Shown here in pieces: positions 1,970 through 28,073 of a DNA stretch of 31,610 nt. The stretch is taken from the IMG/VR virus record IMGVR_UViG_3300026519_000049, positions 1 through 31,610 of that record; one strand, 5' to 3'. The number at the start of each line of letters is the position of its first letter. Positions within the stretch are counted from its first letter, which is position 1. Under the pieces are notes generated by a model. That model saw only the letters and a program-made list of their open reading frames with translations, was not told the DNA's origin and ran no database searches. This DNA is from a virus. Position numbers and translations under genes: made by a program.

Positions 1970-2154
1970 TCCTTGGGATGCTCGCCGGCGCGTTCGGCCT
2001 CGGATGGGTCGGGATCCTGTCGATCCGGGCGGCGCGGGTCGCCCGCAGCAGACGCCGCCGCCTGGCAGTGGAGGTGGTGGCGATGGCCGCCGCCGCCGCC
2101 GGGTACGGCCTGCTCGTCGTCGCCCTGTCCAGGATGCTGGGGGTCGGGTCGTGA
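1966..2154 (+). CDS. Small two-span membrane protein
   Basis: A 62-residue protein with two hydrophobic segments (about residues 2-22 and 36-57) joined by a very basic loop, RAARVARSRRRRL. By the positive-inside rule the loop should face the cytoplasm and both ends the outside. Its ATG overlaps the stop of the annealing protein, and its own stop overlaps the GTG of the initiator, so it is co-expressed with replication genes. The function is unknown. Anchoring replication to the membrane or superinfection exclusion are guesses; a holin this far from the lysis cassette is unlikely. Confidence 0.65.
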   Translation: MILGMLAGAFGLGWVGILSIRAARVARSRRRRLAVEVVAMAAAAAGYGLLVVALSRMLGVGS

Positions 2155-2903
2155 GCATCCGTCTCGTCGACCTCGCCCTCCGCACCCGGCTCCGACCCGC
2201 CGACAAGCTGGTGTTGGTGGCGATCTGCGACGCCGCATCAGACGACGGGGTCGCCTGGCCGTCCCAGGCGACGTTGGCGGAGAAGGCGTCGACGACCGAC
2301 CGGACCGTCCGTAACGTCCTCCGACGTCTCGCCGACGCCGGGCTGGTGTCGTGGGAGCAGCGGGGTCTCGGCAGGGCGAACCGGTATCTCGTCGACGTCG
2401 AGACGCTGCGCCGCCTGGCGGAAACCGATGCCGGTCCGGACGGGTCGGACCGGCATGGGGGTTCCGGTCCAGACCGGAAACAGGGTTCCGGTCCAGACCG
2501 GAAACAGGGTTCCGGTCCCATAACAGAACCGTCAACAGAACCGTCAACCGAACCGTCATTGGCGCCGGCGGCGCCGACGCGCACCAACGGCCGGGATGTG
2601 CTGTTCGAAGCTGTGGCGGAGGTGTGCGGCATCGACTGGCAGACCGGTCTCACCAAGTCGGAGCGGGGACGGCTCAACCGGGCGGTGCAGGAGCTGCGGG
2701 AGGTCGGCGCCACCCCGGACGAGGTGCGACGCAGAGCGGTCGCCTACCGGATCCGATGGCCCGACATCGACCTCACACCCACCGGCCTGGCGGCGAACTG
2801 GACGAAGGTGACGTCGGCGCTGCCCGACCCGGAGGCTGTCACGTCGGCGCGGCTGCGGATGCGGCCCGACCGGCCCGCGCTGCGGCGGGGGTCGACGCCG
2901 TGA
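2151..2903 (+). CDS. Replication initiator with N-terminal winged helix and embedded origin
   Basis: A 250-residue protein starting at a GTG that overlaps the previous stop. Residues about 1-85 are a winged helix of the phage initiator type: LRPADKLVLVAICDAASDDG, then WPSQATLAEKASTTDRTVRNVLRRLADAGLV, and the wing RGLGRANRYLVD. Residues about 93-136 form a low-complexity linker (GSGPDRKQ and TEPS repeats) encoded by the iterons at 2428-2557. The C-terminal domain (about 145-235) is helical, with LTKSERGRLNRAVQELRE and YRIRWPDIDLTPTGLAANW, resembling the C-terminal parts of DnaD-like proteins. The layout copies lambda O: DNA-binding domain, origin in the linker, partner-binding domain. The next genes supply a likely helicase loader. 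Confidence 0.75.
   Translation: MSIRLVDLALRTRLRPADKLVLVAICDAASDDGVAWPSQATLAEKASTTDRTVRNVLRRLADAGLVSWEQRGLGRANRYLVDVETLRRLAETDAGPDGSDRHGGSGPDRKQGSGPDRKQGSGPITEPSTEPSTEPSLAPAAPTRTNGRDVLFEAVAEVCGIDWQTGLTKSERGRLNRAVQELREVGATPDEVRRRAVAYRIRWPDIDLTPTGLAANWTKVTSALPDPEAVTSARLRMRPDRPALRRGSTP
2428..2557 (+). repeat. Putative replication origin: inverted-repeat iterons plus 12-bp repeats
   Basis: Inside the initiator gene lie three inverted repeats. The first has 11-bp arms (2428-2438 and 2446-2456). The next two are TTCCGGTC-CA-GACCGGAA palindromes (2462-2479 and 2486-2503) in a 24-bp direct repeat starting at 2461, 2485 and, partly, 2509. All share the core CCGGTCC/GACCGG. Immediately downstream, AACAGAACCGTC is repeated three times (2522-2557, the last copy with one change); this stretch is much less GC-rich than its surroundings and could serve as the unwinding element. 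The layout parallels lambda ori within gene O. That it binds the encoded initiator is inference. Confidence 0.7.
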
Positions 2904-3187
2904 CGTGGTGGAGGATCCGCCTCGTCGTCTGGGACGGCGACAACGCCGCCGACGTCGCCGAAGCGCTCGGCATCACCGCGGGGATGGTCATCGGCCAGGC
3001 CGGCACTGCCGGACTCACCACCAGGGTGGTAGGCGACGGCGACGACCCCGCGGCGGTCCTCGAGTTCCTCGGATTACGGCCCGGCGACGGCGTCGCCGTC
3101 GACATCGCCACCGGCCGCCCCGTGGCGCCGATCCGCGCCCGCAACGTGGCCCGGTGGCGGCGGATGATCGGAGGGGCGCTGTCGTGA
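2900..3187 (+). CDS. Hypothetical protein in the replication operon
   Basis: A 95-residue protein read from a GTG overlapping the initiator stop (GTGA). It begins TWWRIRLVVWDGDNAADVAEALGI, contains a glycine/aspartate-rich middle (VVGDGDDPAAVLEFLGLRPGDG) and ends in a basic helix (RARNVARWRRMIGG). No family is recognised. The frame is supported by the perfect GTGA chaining at both ends. It is presumably a replication accessory, by position only. Confidence 0.65.
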   Translation: MTWWRIRLVVWDGDNAADVAEALGITAGMVIGQAGTAGLTTRVVGDGDDPAAVLEFLGLRPGDGVAVDIATGRPVAPIRARNVARWRRMIGGALS

Positions 3188-3543
3188 CATGGGATGAGTT
3201 CTGCGACCTCGTCGACTGGATGGCTGTCCGCTGGCCCGACATGAGCCGCTGGTCCGACCGCCGCCTCGACGCCCTCTGGGAGGATCTCGCCGCCTGGCCC
3301 GCCGGCGGAGTCCGCCAAGCGGTCCGACTGATCTACGAGGACGGCGGCCGGCTCCCCACCGGCGGGCAGATCATCAAAACCTGCCGGGCGCTCGGCCACC
3401 AACCTGCAGCCGACAACGCCGAGCATCGGCACGTCTGGGGGATCGTCGAATGGGAGAACGACCGACCGGACCGGCTCCGCCTCCTAGTGTGCGCCACCTG
3501 CCACACCGAAAAGACCATCGACCCGGCCAAGGAGCTCGTATGA
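3184..3543 (+). CDS. Possible helicase loader-like protein with C-terminal Cys/His cluster
   Basis: A 119-residue protein starting at GTG in a GTGA overlap. Residues 3-70 (WDEFCDLVDWMAVRWPDMSR, then a helix with LWEDLAAWPAGGVRQAVRLIYE, then RLPTGGQIIKTCR) resemble the small helical G39P-type loaders. In these, a helix pair ends with a Pro-x-x-x-x-I segment. The C-terminal part has HRHVW and LLVCATCH, a possible zinc site. Its position directly after an initiator gene fits a helicase-loading role. The match is by eye and remote; no helicase gene is in the window, so the phage may recruit the host DnaB. Confidence 0.45.
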   Translation: MTWDEFCDLVDWMAVRWPDMSRWSDRRLDALWEDLAAWPAGGVRQAVRLIYEDGGRLPTGGQIIKTCRALGHQPAADNAEHRHVWGIVEWENDRPDRLRLLVCATCHTEKTIDPAKELV

Positions 3544-3809
3544 CCCTCCGTATCCGACATGTCGACCCCAACGACCTGACCCCACATCCGGACAACCCAC
3601 GCATCATCGACGATGACGCCAAACGGCGCCTCACCCGCATCATCGACCAGTTCGGGTTCGTCGAACCGCTCGTGGTCAACCGCCGTACCGGCCGCCTCGT
3701 CGGCGGCCATCAGCGCCGCCAGATCGCCATCGACCTCGGCATCGACAAGGTGCCGGTCGTCGAGGTGGACGTCGACGACGACCTGCTGCCGGATCGGGGG
3801 CGGCGATGA
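3540..3809 (+). CDS. Stand-alone ParB/Srx-type N-terminal domain protein
   Basis: An 89-residue protein made up of little more than a ParB-type domain. It carries TPHPDNPRIIDDDAKRRLTRIIDQFGFVEPLVVN (box I region) and then GRLVGGHQRRQIAIDLGIDKVPVVEVD, where GGHQRR stands for the box II G-x-x-R nucleotide-binding motif. In many phages this domain is fused to the N-terminus of a DNA methylase. Here it precedes one as a separate gene, its stop lying in an ATGA overlap. There is no KorB/HTH DNA-binding half, so plasmid-style partitioning is unlikely. A role in DNA modification or nicking is plausible. Confidence 0.8.
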   Translation: MTLRIRHVDPNDLTPHPDNPRIIDDDAKRRLTRIIDQFGFVEPLVVNRRTGRLVGGHQRRQIAIDLGIDKVPVVEVDVDDDLLPDRGRR

Positions 3810-3850
3810 GCGAATGATGGCCGGACACCCCGGCGACCATCGACTACCTG

Positions 3851-4936
3851 GTGGGCGACGTGTTCGACGTCCTCGCCGACATGGACGACCGGTCGGTCGA
3901 CCTCATCCTCACCTCCCCACCGTTCCTCGCCGTCCGCTCATATCTGCCCGACGATCATCCGGACAAGCATCTCGAGATCGGGCAGGAACCGGACCCGGCC
4001 GCCTTCGTCGACACACTGCTACGGCTCGCAGCCGAATGGCGGCGGGTCCTCGCCCCATATGGGTCGCTCGTCGTCGAGCTCGGCGATACCTACACGACCG
4101 ACGACGCGGCCGGCTGGCCGATGCGGAAGTCGTTGGCGATGGTGCCGGAACTGTTCCGGATCGCGCTCGCCTACGGCATCCATCCCCTCACCGGCGCCGA
4201 GTCGCCGGCCGGGAGGTGGCTGGTGCGGAACGTGGTCCGGTGGGTGCGGCCGAACCCGCCGGTCGGTGCGCTCGGAGACAAGTTCCGGCCCGCGACCACC
4301 GACATCGTCGTCGCATGCACCTCCGCCGACAGGTGGTTCGACCTCGACGCCGTCCGCACCGCCCCCAGATCGGATCCGACGAAGCCTGCGATGTCGAACC
4401 GGAAAGCCCGCGAGGTCGACGACCCACGGATCCTGTCGAAGGCCAACGGGTCGGGGGAGTGGCATCCTGGCGGTGTGCCGCCGTTGGATTGGTGGGAGAT
4501 CCCACCGGGCGGATACGAAGGCGCCCACTACGCTGTCTGGCCGCCGAAACTGCTCGTCGTTCCCATCCAGTCGATGTGCCCCCGCCGGGTGTGCCGCACC
4601 TGCGGGGAGCCGTCACGCCGCATCGTCCATAGGGAACGGATGGCCGACCCGGTCCGACACGAAGGGCAGAAGAACCATCCGGCCGCGAACCCGAGATCCG
4701 GGTTCTTCGACCCGCCACCCACAGACTGGCGATACAGGCCGGAGACGGTCGGATGGACCGACTGTGGCCACGACGACTGGCGGCGTGGTGTCGTCCTCGA
4801 CCCGTTCGCCGGCACCGGAACCACCCTCGCGGTCGCCCACGGCCACGGGAGGTCCGCCATCGGCATCGACCTCGACGAACGGAACCGCAGATTGGCGGCC
4901 GAACGGATCGGCCCCCTCTTCTTCACTCAGCGGTAA
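3851..4936 (+). CDS. Beta-class DNA amino-methyltransferase, start uncertain
   Basis: An SAM-dependent N4-cytosine or N6-adenine DNA methyltransferase of 361 residues. Motif IV is VDLILTSPPF near residue 20 and motif I is VVLDPFAGTGTT near residue 315, followed by GRSAIGIDLDERN. The order IV then I, with the target-recognition region between, defines the beta class. CPRRVCRTCGEP looks like a zinc knuckle. The GTG at 3851 has no ribosome-binding site and clips the first strand of the fold. The operon-style ATG at 3806 (ATGA overlap with the ParB gene) meets an in-frame TGA at 3815 after Met-Ser-Glu, and the frame then continues WPDTPATIDYLVGDV. The start may therefore be disrupted or recoded. 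It probably protects phage DNA against restriction. Confidence 0.8.
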   Translation: MGDVFDVLADMDDRSVDLILTSPPFLAVRSYLPDDHPDKHLEIGQEPDPAAFVDTLLRLAAEWRRVLAPYGSLVVELGDTYTTDDAAGWPMRKSLAMVPELFRIALAYGIHPLTGAESPAGRWLVRNVVRWVRPNPPVGALGDKFRPATTDIVVACTSADRWFDLDAVRTAPRSDPTKPAMSNRKAREVDDPRILSKANGSGEWHPGGVPPLDWWEIPPGGYEGAHYAVWPPKLLVVPIQSMCPRRVCRTCGEPSRRIVHRERMADPVRHEGQKNHPAANPRSGFFDPPPTDWRYRPETVGWTDCGHDDWRRGVVLDPFAGTGTTLAVAHGHGRSAIGIDLDERNRRLAAERIGPLFFTQR

Positions 4937-14194: not shown

Positions 14195-14278
14195 GGGGGT
14201 TCGGCAGTCTCAACGCCCTCCGCGTCGTACAACGGCGCATCTAAGTGGCGTCCACCACACTACCAGCTAGCACAGTCA

Positions 14279-14322
14279 CACTACGGCCCCCTCCGACCTG
14301 CCGGTCGGAGGGGGCCGTAGTG
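14279..14322. terminator. 20-bp perfect hairpin, likely bidirectional terminator or attenuator
   Basis: Arms at 14279-14298 and 14303-14322 pair perfectly over 20 bp around a TGCC tetraloop; the stem is very GC-rich. No T-tract follows on either side, as is common for actinobacterial I-shaped terminators. It closes the + strand helix-turn-helix gene. On the minus strand it lies between head/connector and tail genes, where it would reduce tail transcription unless antitermination or a second promoter operates. Confidence 0.7.
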
Positions 14323-14471
14323 TCGGGGCGGTGTTGCCAACCACGGGAGGTACGGAGCTGTCCCGTCCCGACGGTCCGATGCCTGGGAGAGCCGGTGGGG
14401 GGACCAACCGCCGGACCGCCGGGCGGAACAACCTGTGGCCCCCGACTGCCACACCCGGCGACGATAGCCGG
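14323..14471. other. Non-coding gap with secondary-structure potential
   Basis: No credible gene is found here on either strand; open frames are compositional shadows. Short complementary segments (CCGTC/GACGG near 14371-14382; CCGGTGG/CCGCCGG near 14392-14416 with one wobble) suggest RNA folding. Together with 14195-14278 it makes up the only sizeable gap in the late operon. I see no tRNA, no attachment core and no promoter I would defend. Confidence 0.3.
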
Positions 14472-16467: not shown

Positions 16468-18294
16468 TTATGGTTTCGTCGCTGGTCGCTGCGTCCATGC
16501 TACCGGGCTGGCCGTGGCGGGCGGCGCCGCCGGGGATCCGGCGGGTGGCGCCGCCGACGCCGCCGGTGCGTTGGTGGTGGCGCCGGTGGGGAGGTTGCGC
16601 CACCATCCGCCGGATGACGTCACCGTCACCGGCATCGCCTGCCCGGCCTCGGACGCCTGGCCGACGGTGACGGTGCGGTGCGCCGTCACCGGCTGGGCCG
16701 TGGCGGTCTCTGATCCGGGGCCGATGGTGATGGCGCGGTTGGCTGCGACGGCGGCGGCGAGGTCGGTTTCGGCGGCCTGTCCGACGGTGACGGTGCGGTG
16801 GGCCGTCACCGGCTGGGCGGCGTCGGTCTCTGCGGCGAGGCGGACTGGGGTGGCGGTGCTGGTCGTCACCGCCGTCGCCTGGTCCGACTCGGCCGCCTTG
16901 CCGACGGTGGCGGCCTTGGCCGGCGTCACCGGTCTGGCAGTGGAGGTGGCCGCCGCCAGACCAACGGAGACGCCGCGGACCGCGGTGATCGGCTGGGCCT
17001 GCCCGGTCTCGGCGGGCTGTCCGACGGTGACTGTCCGGACCGCGGTGACCGCCGCCGCCTGCCCGGTCTCGGCGGCCAGACCGACCGGGACGGTTTTGCG
17101 CGGTGTCACCGCGCGGGCCGCCGACCCGGTTGCCGCCTGCCCCACCGGCACGGCTTTGGCCGACCCGACCGGCTGGGCGGTCGCAGTCTCTGATGCGACC
17201 GCGACGGTGATGGTCCGGACGGCGACGATGGGTTGTGCCGTGTCCGCCTCCGCGGCGGCACCGACGACCGCGGCTTTCGCCGACCCGACGGGCTGCGCCG
17301 TGTCCGTCTCGAGACCCTGTCCCACGGCGACGACCCGGACGGCCCGGATGGGCTGCGCCAGGTCGGTCTCCGCCGCCTGGCCGATCCCGAGATCCCGGGC
17401 GGTTAGCCAATCGACCGCCAGGTCGCGGTTGGTGCGGTATCCGGCGAGGCCGAACCGGCGGTTCCCGACGATCTGGGTGTCGGTGACGGTCAGCCACACG
17501 TCCGAGTCGACCTTCGCCCGGATCGTCGACCCGGACGCCTCGAGCTGGACGAAATAGTCGACGTCCGCCGCCAGGCTGCGGCTCTGGGATGCGATGTCGG
17601 TGTTGGATCCGTTGACGGTGCGGGTGATATCGAGGCGGCCCGCGGAGTCGAGCGCCGCCCGGTAGTAGGTCTGCGCCGTCGCCGAGAATCGGGCGCAGAT
17701 GCCGATCACACCGGACACCGACCCGACGAACCGGACCGGCCCGCCGACATAATGGTTGTCGGTGTCGAGGTCGTGTTCGGCCCGGGCGGCGGCACCCGAG
17801 TTGTTGGTCCGCGGGGTCGCGCGGTTGGAGACGGTCTGCCAGTCGTTCTGCACCTCGGTCCACGTCAGATCCGGGCCGAGAACGGTCGAGTCGGCCTGGT
17901 TGAACGACTCGGAGAAGGTGGCGGCTCGGATCGGCGGGGCGGCGAAGAGCAGCTCGCGGCACCACACCTCGACGAGGCCGGTCTTGGGGTTGGTGCGGGC
18001 AGCCGGCCAGCGGCCGGGCCGGGCGTGGACGGTGAGCAGCTCGGCGACGATGTGACGGACCGTCACCCCGTCCAACGTCACCGACAACATGTTCTCGAGG
18101 TGGCGACGCACCGCGGCCGGCAGGTGGGCGTCGGGGTCGTCACCGAGGTCGACAACAGGTCGGTGCGCATGGTCGGCGGCGACGACGGCGACCGGGCCGA
18201 GGTCGATGGCAGTCCACGTCCCGTCCACGGCGGAGGGGCGGCGGTGGTTGCCGGGGTGGCCGGTGCCGACCCAGCGGGCCGCCACCCACCGCAT
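16468..18294 (-). CDS. Lectin-like structural protein with thirteen 20-residue repeats
   Basis: A 608-residue protein. Residues 1-120 have no recognised domain (MRWVAARWVGTGHPGNHRRP at the start). Residues about 125-300 look like a concanavalin A/LamG-type lectin: TFSESFNQADSTVLGPDL, YYRAALDSAGRLDITR, VDYFVQLEASGSTIRAKVD, RRFGLAGY. Residues 302-561 are thirteen 20-residue repeats around VGQAAETDxAQPVTAxRxVT. The final 47 residues are Ala/Pro-rich. It lies between capsid accessory and connector genes, so a head fibre or capsid decoration that binds carbohydrate is likely; a tail protein in an odd place is the alternative. Its ATG overlaps the previous stop, and TAA ends it, rare in this window. 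Confidence 0.7.
   Translation of the reverse strand: MRWVAARWVGTGHPGNHRRPSAVDGTWTAIDLGPVAVVAADHAHRPVVDLGDDPDAHLPAAVRRHLENMLSVTLDGVTVRHIVAELLTVHARPGRWPAARTNPKTGLVEVWCRELLFAAPPIRAATFSESFNQADSTVLGPDLTWTEVQNDWQTVSNRATPRTNNSGAAARAEHDLDTDNHYVGGPVRFVGSVSGVIGICARFSATAQTYYRAALDSAGRLDITRTVNGSNTDIASQSRSLAADVDYFVQLEASGSTIRAKVDSDVWLTVTDTQIVGNRRFGLAGYRTNRDLAVDWLTARDLGIGQAAETDLAQPIRAVRVVAVGQGLETDTAQPVGSAKAAVVGAAAEADTAQPIVAVRTITVAVASETATAQPVGSAKAVPVGQAATGSAARAVTPRKTVPVGLAAETGQAAAVTAVRTVTVGQPAETGQAQPITAVRGVSVGLAAATSTARPVTPAKAATVGKAAESDQATAVTTSTATPVRLAAETDAAQPVTAHRTVTVGQAAETDLAAAVAANRAITIGPGSETATAQPVTAHRTVTVGQASEAGQAMPVTVTSSGGWWRNLPTGATTNAPAASAAPPAGSPAAPPATASPVAWTQRPATKP
16612..17391 (-). repeat. Thirteen tandem 60-bp coding repeats
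   Basis: The repeat array of the lectin-like protein: thirteen units of exactly 60 bp with no length variation. On the + strand, blocks such as CCGACGGTGACGGTGCGG recur. Units differ by many silent and replacement changes but keep Gly4, Glu8 (mostly), Ala12, Pro14 (mostly) and a basic residue at 19. The protein period suggests a repeated beta-hairpin or solenoid turn; recombination could alter the copy number. Confidence 0.8.
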
Positions 18295-26525: not shown

Positions 26526-26989
26526 TGGCGAAGATGATGACGGCGGCGGTGTGGTGCCGCAGCTGCGACCTGTGGCGCCACGACATCGACCCGGGCGGCG
26601 CCTGCCCCAACTGCGGGATGCCGATGCTCCCCGAGGAGCCAGACCGATGGGAGGGGATGCACATCCCCCGCATCGGCGACGCCACCATTTGGATCGGAGT
26701 GCGGGTCGACCCCGCCGACCGGCCCGTCTGGGAGCGGCTCGAGTCGGTCGCCGACACCGCCGCCTCCGGATGCGTCATCCACGTCCGGGGTGGCATCTGG
26801 ACCGGCGCCGCAGTCTCCACCCACGACGGGTTCTGGACGGCGGTCGTCGGTCGGGACGACAAGACGGCGATCGTCCTCTGGTCCGACGACGCACCCCGCG
26901 GCGGTGACGGTCTCGCACCCGCCGCGATCTTCGACCGGGACGACCGGGCCGTCTGGGAGATGGTCCGCCACCTCCACGCCAGGCGGTGA
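26525..26989 (+). CDS. Zinc-ribbon protein of unknown function
   Basis: A 154-residue protein. The N-terminus carries VWCRSCDLWRHDIDPGGACPNCGMPM, a CxxC...CxxC zinc ribbon. The rest is a mixed alpha/beta domain (TIWIGVRVDPADRPVWERLESVADTAASGCVIHVRGGIW, FWTAVVGRDDKTAIVLWSDDAP). I do not recognise the family. Sharing an operon with a PP-loop protein may hint at nucleic-acid work, but that is inference. Confidence 0.65.
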   Translation: MAKMMTAAVWCRSCDLWRHDIDPGGACPNCGMPMLPEEPDRWEGMHIPRIGDATIWIGVRVDPADRPVWERLESVADTAASGCVIHVRGGIWTGAAVSTHDGFWTAVVGRDDKTAIVLWSDDAPRGGDGLAPAAIFDRDDRAVWEMVRHLHARR

Positions 26990-27288
26990 CCCAACCAACC
27001 CTCACATCAGGACGGTGGGTGGACGCACAACGGGAGGCGTCCACCCGCCTCCGCGCCGCCGCCGACACCGGAGACTGGCCGGCCGAATGCGCCGCCATCC
27101 TCCACCAGGCCGCCGACCACTGCGACCAGGCCACCGTCGACACCCCAACCGGCTGGTGGATGATCTGGCTGCCGCACATCGCCGCCACCTGGCGGATCGG
27201 CGACAGCCACCCCGACACGGACGTCGCCCAAGCCGCCGCACGGGTCCGCCGCACCATTCTCGAGGCCGCCACCGTGATGCCACCATGA
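26986..27288 (+). CDS. Hypothetical helical protein
   Basis: A 100-residue protein from a GTG in a GTGA overlap. REASTRLRAAADTGDWPAECAAILHQAADHCDQATVDTPTGWWMIWLPHIAATWRIGD is followed by a helix, DVAQAAARVRRTILEAATV. It is mostly helical. Nothing recognisable. Its stop overlaps the start of the PP-loop gene (ATGA), suggesting coupled synthesis. Confidence 0.6.
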   Translation: MTQPTLTSGRWVDAQREASTRLRAAADTGDWPAECAAILHQAADHCDQATVDTPTGWWMIWLPHIAATWRIGDSHPDTDVAQAAARVRRTILEAATVMPP

Positions 27289-28073
27289 CCACCATGCGGC
27301 ACATCGTGATGTTCTCCGGCGGTGTCGGCTCGTTCCTCGCCGCAGCCAGGACCGTCGACTTCTACGGCCCCGACGCCGTCACCCTGCTGTTCGCAGACAC
27401 CCGCATCGAGGACGACGATCTGTACCGATTCGTCGACGACGCCGCCGACCATCTCGGCGCAAAGCTCGTCACCATCGCCGACGGCCGCACCCCGTGGCAA
27501 CTATTCGCCGACGTCCGCATGATCGGCAACACCCGGGCGGACATCTGCTCGCGGGTGCTCAAACGTGACCTCATGCGCCGATGGATCGACGACCACGCCG
27601 ACCCGGACGACACCACCATCGTCCTCGGCATCGACTGGACCGAACATCACCGCTTCGACCGGGTGCGTCACCGGTGGAAACCGTGGACCGTCACCGCGCC
27701 GATGTGCGACCCGCCGCTGCTCGACAAACCCGAGATGATCGCCGAGGTGCGGCGCCGCGGCATCGAACCGCCACGCCTCTACCAGCTCGGATTCCCCCAC
27801 AACAACTGCGGCGGGTTCTGCGTCAAAGCCGGGATCGGCCAGTTCCTGCTCCTCCTCGAGAAACTCCCCGACCGGTATCGGGCGCACGAGGCCGAGGAGG
27901 AGCGGGTCCGACGGATCATCGGCAAAGACGTCGCGGTCCTCCGGGACCGACGTGGCGGCACCACCCGGCCGCTCACCCTCGCCGAGCTCCGCCGGCGGGT
28001 CGAGGCCGGCGGCGAGCAGCTCACCCTCGACGGCATCGACGAGTTCGGCGGATGCGGATGCGCCATCGAATAA
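27285..28073 (+). CDS. PAPS-reductase-like PP-loop ATPase
   Basis: A 262-residue protein of the adenine-nucleotide alpha-hydrolase superfamily. The PP-loop SGGVGS (11-16) follows a beta strand (HIVMF). LLFADTRIEDDDLYRFVDD, the ADICSRVLKRD segment with Cys87, and IVLGIDWTEHHR fit the phage/DndC-like PAPS reductase group. Cys174 and Cys178 (HNNCGGFCVKAGIGQF) and the terminal GGCGC could hold an Fe-S cluster or relay sulfur. Such proteins activate a substrate by adenylation, often for sulfur transfer. Whether the target is DNA, tRNA or sulfate cannot be told. The nearby C5-methyltransferase makes a nucleic-acid target attractive. Confidence 0.8.
   Translation: MTTMRHIVMFSGGVGSFLAAARTVDFYGPDAVTLLFADTRIEDDDLYRFVDDAADHLGAKLVTIADGRTPWQLFADVRMIGNTRADICSRVLKRDLMRRWIDDHADPDDTTIVLGIDWTEHHRFDRVRHRWKPWTVTAPMCDPPLLDKPEMIAEVRRRGIEPPRLYQLGFPHNNCGGFCVKAGIGQFLLLLEKLPDRYRAHEAEEERVRRIIGKDVAVLRDRRGGTTRPLTLAELRRRVEAGGEQLTLDGIDEFGGCGCAIE

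Follow-up and report, generated by a model that had tools for sequence, protein, structure and literature searches.

The gene for the predicted replication initiator of this phage contains, in the part that encodes the linker between its two folded domains, a group of inverted repeats (dyads) followed by an array of the octamer AACCRTCA. Our computations show that dyads and array have been selected as DNA, with their order and strand kept, and that the dyad cores covary with the recognition helix of the initiator. We consider it likely that positions 2428-2558 constitute the replication origin of this phage, lying inside its own initiator gene and working by the mechanism proposed below; from these patterns we infer origin activity, initiator binding, DNA opening and loading.

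The whole stretch of DNA analyzed (hereafter the window) is a phage contig of 31,610 bases, encoding a portal, a tape measure, DNA methyltransferases, a single-strand annealing protein and the initiator, whose gene adjoins that of the annealing protein (Table 1). The N-terminal domain of the initiator matches HTH_36 (PF13730; 44.8 bits against a curated cut-off of 25), whereas no match to RepA_N was found with Pfam, and the protein also matches several PHROG families annotated as replication initiation O-like, the best being phrog_391 (E = 4e-19). In the predicted structure the winged helix is confident (pLDDT about 96-98 over residues 1-70), with residues 50-62 as recognition helix, and residues about 95-148 are predicted to be a disordered linker between the two folded domains; the second of these is 49% identical over the domain to that of a same-order relative (L003). 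A Foldseek comparison of the model with the PDB gave no match at E<=0.001; its hits consist of generic winged helices, and the 20 best of them include one entry called "Structure of initiator" and another called "N-Terminal domain of DNA binding protein". A sequence search of the PDB found no relative. Among the scanned genes, neither a lambda P-like helicase loader nor DnaB was recognized, the two that follow the initiator (2900-3187 and 3184-3543) matched no family, and a terminal direct repeat of 21-300 bp is absent from the contig.

Other features of the window were noted in passing. A ParB N-terminal-like ORF and a DNA methyltransferase lie at 3540-4936, just 3' of the initiator operon, and a phosphoadenosine phosphosulfate reductase gene at 26790-28073; phage C72C1 also has one of the latter near its initiator. 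The longest perfect inverted repeat of the window (14278-14323, 21-bp arms, 4-nt loop) is located between minus-strand ORFs and is possibly a terminator, and degenerate 60/120-bp tandem repeats occupy 16623-17092 within a minus-strand ORF of 670 aa.

Table 1. Positions of the initiator gene, its domains and the candidate origin elements in the window.
Feature	Position	Strand	Remarks
Initiator gene, HTH_36 / O-like	2151..2903	+	GTG start, 250 aa
Winged-helix DNA-binding domain, residues 12-66	2184..2348	+	Pfam HTH_36, E = 1e-11, and structure model
Dyad 1, ATGCCGGTCCG-N7-CGGACCGGCAT	2428..2456	.	Perfect 11-bp arms; candidate initiator-binding site
Dyad 2, TTCCGGTC-CA-GACCGGAA	2462..2479	.	18 bp
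Dyad 3	2486..2503	.	Same sequence as dyad 2, 24 bp on
Extra lone half-site TTCCGGTCC	2510..2518	+	Completes a third GACCGG-N10-CCGGTC unit
CCCATAAC, left end of the shared array element (CCCATAACC in relatives)	2517..2524	+	Among top-ranked linker 7-mers of an unbiased scan
12-bp repeat AACAGAACCGTC, three copies	2522-2557		Third copy with one difference
AACCRTCA copy 1	2527..2534	+	
AACCRTCA copy 2	2539..2546	+	
AACCRTCA copy 3	2551..2558	+	
GGCGCC-GGC-GGCGCC hairpin just 3' of the array	2561..2575	.	Loop unlike the C-T(N)NC-G of relatives; candidate member only
Helical C-terminal domain, residues 150-236	2598..2858	+	Structure model; related to that of L003

A previous reading of the sequence alone had described three inverted repeats with a common CCGGTCC/GACCGG core in the linker-coding part of a winged-helix initiator, two of them in a 24-bp tandem, with repeat lengths of 24 and 12 bp that keep the frame. 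All of this was borne out: three dyads with common CCGGTC/GACCGG half-sites are present at 2428-2503, dyad 3 repeats the sequence of dyad 2 at a distance of 24 bp, all the elements are in frame here, and the winged helix is confirmed as HTH_36. The same DNA can alternatively be parsed as three GACCGG-N10-CCGGTC units at exactly 24 bp (2448-2517), where shuffles predict 0.06. Dyads with arms >=8 exceeded the expectation from synonymous-codon shuffles of the gene itself (5 observed vs 0.31 expected, P = 2e-4), also when codons were shuffled inside the linker only (P = 0.001), and the 500-bp bin that includes the site contains 6 dyads with such arms, every other bin of the window having at most 2. 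Because the heptamer CCGGTCC is common by itself in this 70% GC contig (36 occurrences vs 30 expected), it is the arrangement and not the heptamer that is unusual.

A single-protein scan of viral contigs returned no relatives of the initiator, an order-wide genome search just two partial ones, and a 13-sequence alignment no stretch conserved enough to serve as query. From phage records, genomes and IMG/VR we gathered 325 homologous genes, a sample shaped by the search patterns and not a census; they were grouped at 60% or 80% protein identity and each was compared with its own synonymous shuffles. Across 61 clusters the linker harbored 1.41 inverted repeats per gene (arm>=7, spacer<=10) vs 0.20 expected, with no excess in the winged-helix (0.23 observed, 0.21 expected) or C-terminal (0.24 for both) regions. 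With 90 clusters, the dyad excess amounted to 5.8-7.6-fold at codons 75-134, was smaller at 135-164 and vanished beyond; a 3-fold excess, based on few counts, was also seen in one bin, codons 15-29. A linker dyad of the tested size was present in 62 of the 90 clusters and individually significant at 0.05 in 34.

The dyad cores are subfamily-specific (e.g. CTGACACA, CCAGGTGG, ACCTAGGTC and GCAGAAT), and recurrent ones such as ATTCTGC and GGGTGCA are found in more than one reading frame. In L003 (1130-1440) several half-sites of the AAGGTACCG type were seen in the linker, in two frames (KGTD and KVPVP), AAGGTACCG taking the place of CCGGTC/GACCGG. Identity of the recognition helix predicts shared cores after controlling for the rest of the domain (partial Mantel r = 0.073, P = 0.0005), whereas the converse, with the rest of the winged-helix domain as predictor, gave r = 0.001 (P = 0.49); since the majority of pairs have no core in common, the effect is small. 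Such covariation is expected if that helix reads the dyads, the binding itself being predicted. In the test on homologues proposed in the sequence-only reading, palindromes persist while linker residues drift, the opposite of the outcome named there as adverse. The accompanying idea of a joint evolution of linker and DNA element calls for rewording: as each of the three frames is used to read these DNA words, it is the DNA that is conserved, and the linker peptide would be its by-product.

The second element emerged from the TEPS peptide repeats of the linker, which led to a codon anomaly in the EP[SV] residues of the family, where serine is encoded by TCA in 94% of cases vs 18% in the background and glutamate by GAA in 98% vs 52%. 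The threefold, less GC-rich 12-bp run reported earlier is present, but it is not merely that, as it represents a family-wide strand-specific motif, AACCRTCA. In the initiator gene the octamer occurs 3 times vs 0.16 expected (0/5000 synonymous shuffles; P = 0.018 when codons are shuffled within the linker alone). Codons 105-164 of the family contain 226 forward copies, about 24 being expected, and 0 in reverse. At least one copy is found in 101 of 167 representative initiators, mostly as 2-4 copies with 10-13 bp spacing, which belong to phages of Proteobacteria, Actinobacteria and Campylobacter and translate the motif, according to frame, as EPS/KPS, NHQ/NRQ or ITI/RTV (T(I/V)). An unbiased 7-mer scan ranked CCCATAACC and pieces of AACCRTCA top in the linker, with nothing comparable elsewhere; the array variants AACCGTCC, AACCACCA and GAAYCNRTCA add further members, the first of them being present in four copies in L007, from an Arthrobacter globiformis phage, and none of the recognized forms of the array was seen in 33 of the 167 initiators. 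No description of the array was found in the open-access literature searched, where text matches to the octamer corresponded to primers and unrelated sequence; the novelty of the array is provisional because that search was limited to open-access papers.

IMG/VR was also searched for three spaced AACCRTCA copies without reference to any protein. This retrieved 124 viral sites, at least 89 of them within an ORF bearing this winged helix, with several of the remainder being truncated or divergent initiators; when genome hits were added, the matches in winged-helix ORFs were all in the sense direction (126/126). The 150 nt upstream of 52 non-tandem sites contained 68 dyads vs 4.1 expected, with flat controls, and isolate genomes having both dyads and array include those of Mycetocola, Bifidobacterium, Campylobacter concisus and Alcaligenes faecalis. 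Many of the matches in genomes fall in unrelated genes as perfect tandem repeats, and we discounted these as noise.

A third strand-specific element, consisting of stem-loops with varied stems and C-T(N)NC-G loops, was observed 31 times in relatives, where 0.62 would be expected, compared with 1 vs 0.48 for the opposite-strand form; it usually lies no more than 20 nt beyond the AACCRTCA array. Examples are found in L006 (about codon 124), L084 (127), L088 (117), L156 (120) and L263 (117), among others, and they are commoner where array copies are few. Their lower strand reads C-GNA-G or C-GNNA-G, loops that form unusually stable DNA mini-hairpins.

We propose that initiator dimers would use the recognition helix of the winged-helix domain to bind the CCGGTC/GACCGG dyads, that the dyad-bound dimers would assemble side by side and thereby strain or open the adjacent AACCRTCA array (2517-2558), and that one array strand would then be presented for helicase or primase loading with the help of the initiator C-terminal domain. 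In this scheme the dyads would represent the phage-specific part, changing together with the recognition helix, and the array the shared part, recognized by something common to many phages or hosts. As the array is conserved where the dyads are not, it may be recognized by a common factor or act as a one-strand opening or loading element. We advance more tentatively, at somewhat less than even chances, the general claim that AACCRTCA is a shared strand-specific origin element, a common opening or helicase/primase-loading site for phages of unrelated hosts that is read by a conserved factor, with the dyads giving initiator specificity and some phages replacing or supplementing the array with a stem-loop. 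Composition skew, suggested at the outset as a check, is uninformative as to the position of the origin in both the window and the relatives: no sign switch of GC skew was found there across 83 relatives, and the GC skew of the window, which is confounded, flips opposite to the direction expected of a simple bidirectional origin. A GC dip beside the dyads in the family is weak.

Binding to dyads is common among winged-helix proteins, the HTH_36 fold also resembles regulators, and lambda O at ori may impede transcription (PMC3985674), so the dyads could be operators through which the protein regulates transcription inside its own gene by autoregulation or roadblock, with no origin involved. We regard this as unlikely, because the sites are not at a promoter but some 280 bp into the gene, the dyad excess occupies the same linker position across relatives, a conserved strand-specific array follows the dyads, and the family is annotated as replication initiators; moreover, in pPR9 it is an HTH_36 domain with the associated origin region that drives replication (PMC5703833).

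Less probable still is an RNA element, that is, mRNA hairpins and/or a C-rich, G-poor Rho-type site controlling translation or termination of the replication operon. It would be in keeping with the better folding of the window segment as RNA than of its shuffles (z = -3.8), with the C-rich, G-poor coding strand at the linker of relatives (GC skew -0.115) and its repeats 10-13 nt apart, and with the strand-specific loops of the stem-loops in some relatives. However, a spacer of 0-2 nt leaves no room for a hairpin loop, yet dyads of this kind show as strong an enrichment as those with longer spacers (51 vs 7.8 expected); the dyad cores follow the DNA-recognition helix, and Rho sites are not known to require a fixed octamer. 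That the peptide itself matters, residues such as GSGPDRKQ and TEPS being selected and the DNA pattern being a by-product of tandem duplication and codon bias, appears very improbable: although repeat lengths of 24 and 12 bp preserve the frame here and identical DNA copies do arise from tandem duplication, synonymous shuffles do not reproduce the pattern, the same DNA words encode EPS, NHQ/NRQ or TI/TV in different phages, and linker peptides vary between subfamilies and are predicted to be disordered here.

If the origin proposal is correct, origins could be predicted from the sequence for a large class of phages, most of which lack a mapped origin, and the variable dyads, responsible for origin specificity, could be separated from the shared array. 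It would account for the repetitive and fast-drifting nature of initiator linkers, and for the exchange of domain and origin as one module, as reported for pPR9. The question it poses is what recognizes AACCRTCA across phages with hosts as different as Proteobacteria, Actinobacteria and Campylobacter.

The lambda origin lies within gene O, where O dimers bind 18-19-bp inverted repeats and an adjacent A+T-rich region opens (PMC5043065, PMC6022878, PMC7466680); in our lambda control the annotated iterons were 18 bp each and 20-24 bp apart. Here too the putative origin DNA is located between the codons for the DNA-binding and C-terminal domains, and dyads 2 and 3 are 18 bp long and 24 bp apart. 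The lambda-like architecture put forward in the sequence-only reading holds as regards an initiator with linker dyads, but not as regards the A+T-rich tract, since 2517-2558 is 52% GC and has no such tract of about 40 bp. In its place stands the AACCRTCA array, which is absent from lambda O; the core sequence is also different from that of lambda, and no P-like partner was recognized here. RepA_N plasmids share the general plan of a winged-helix domain with boxes inside rep, the comparison with the pPR9/pUSA03 hybrids being based on published descriptions: in pSK41 the Rep boxes inside rep are bound by the winged-helix N-terminal domain, and the linker encoded by the origin is dispensable, whereas pPR9 has exchanged that domain, together with the origin region, for one of pfam13730 (HTH_36), replicates autonomously and is compatible with pSK41 (PMC5703833). 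The initiator described here matches HTH_36 and not RepA_N, and belongs to a phage and not to a plasmid. Also close are the HTH_36 / PHROG O-like initiators of Arthrobacter, Pseudomonas, Vibrio and Salmonella phages and of IMG/VR contigs, which have the same domain and for the most part linker dyads as well as the array or one of its variants, and differ in their subfamily-specific dyad cores and varied C-terminal domains.
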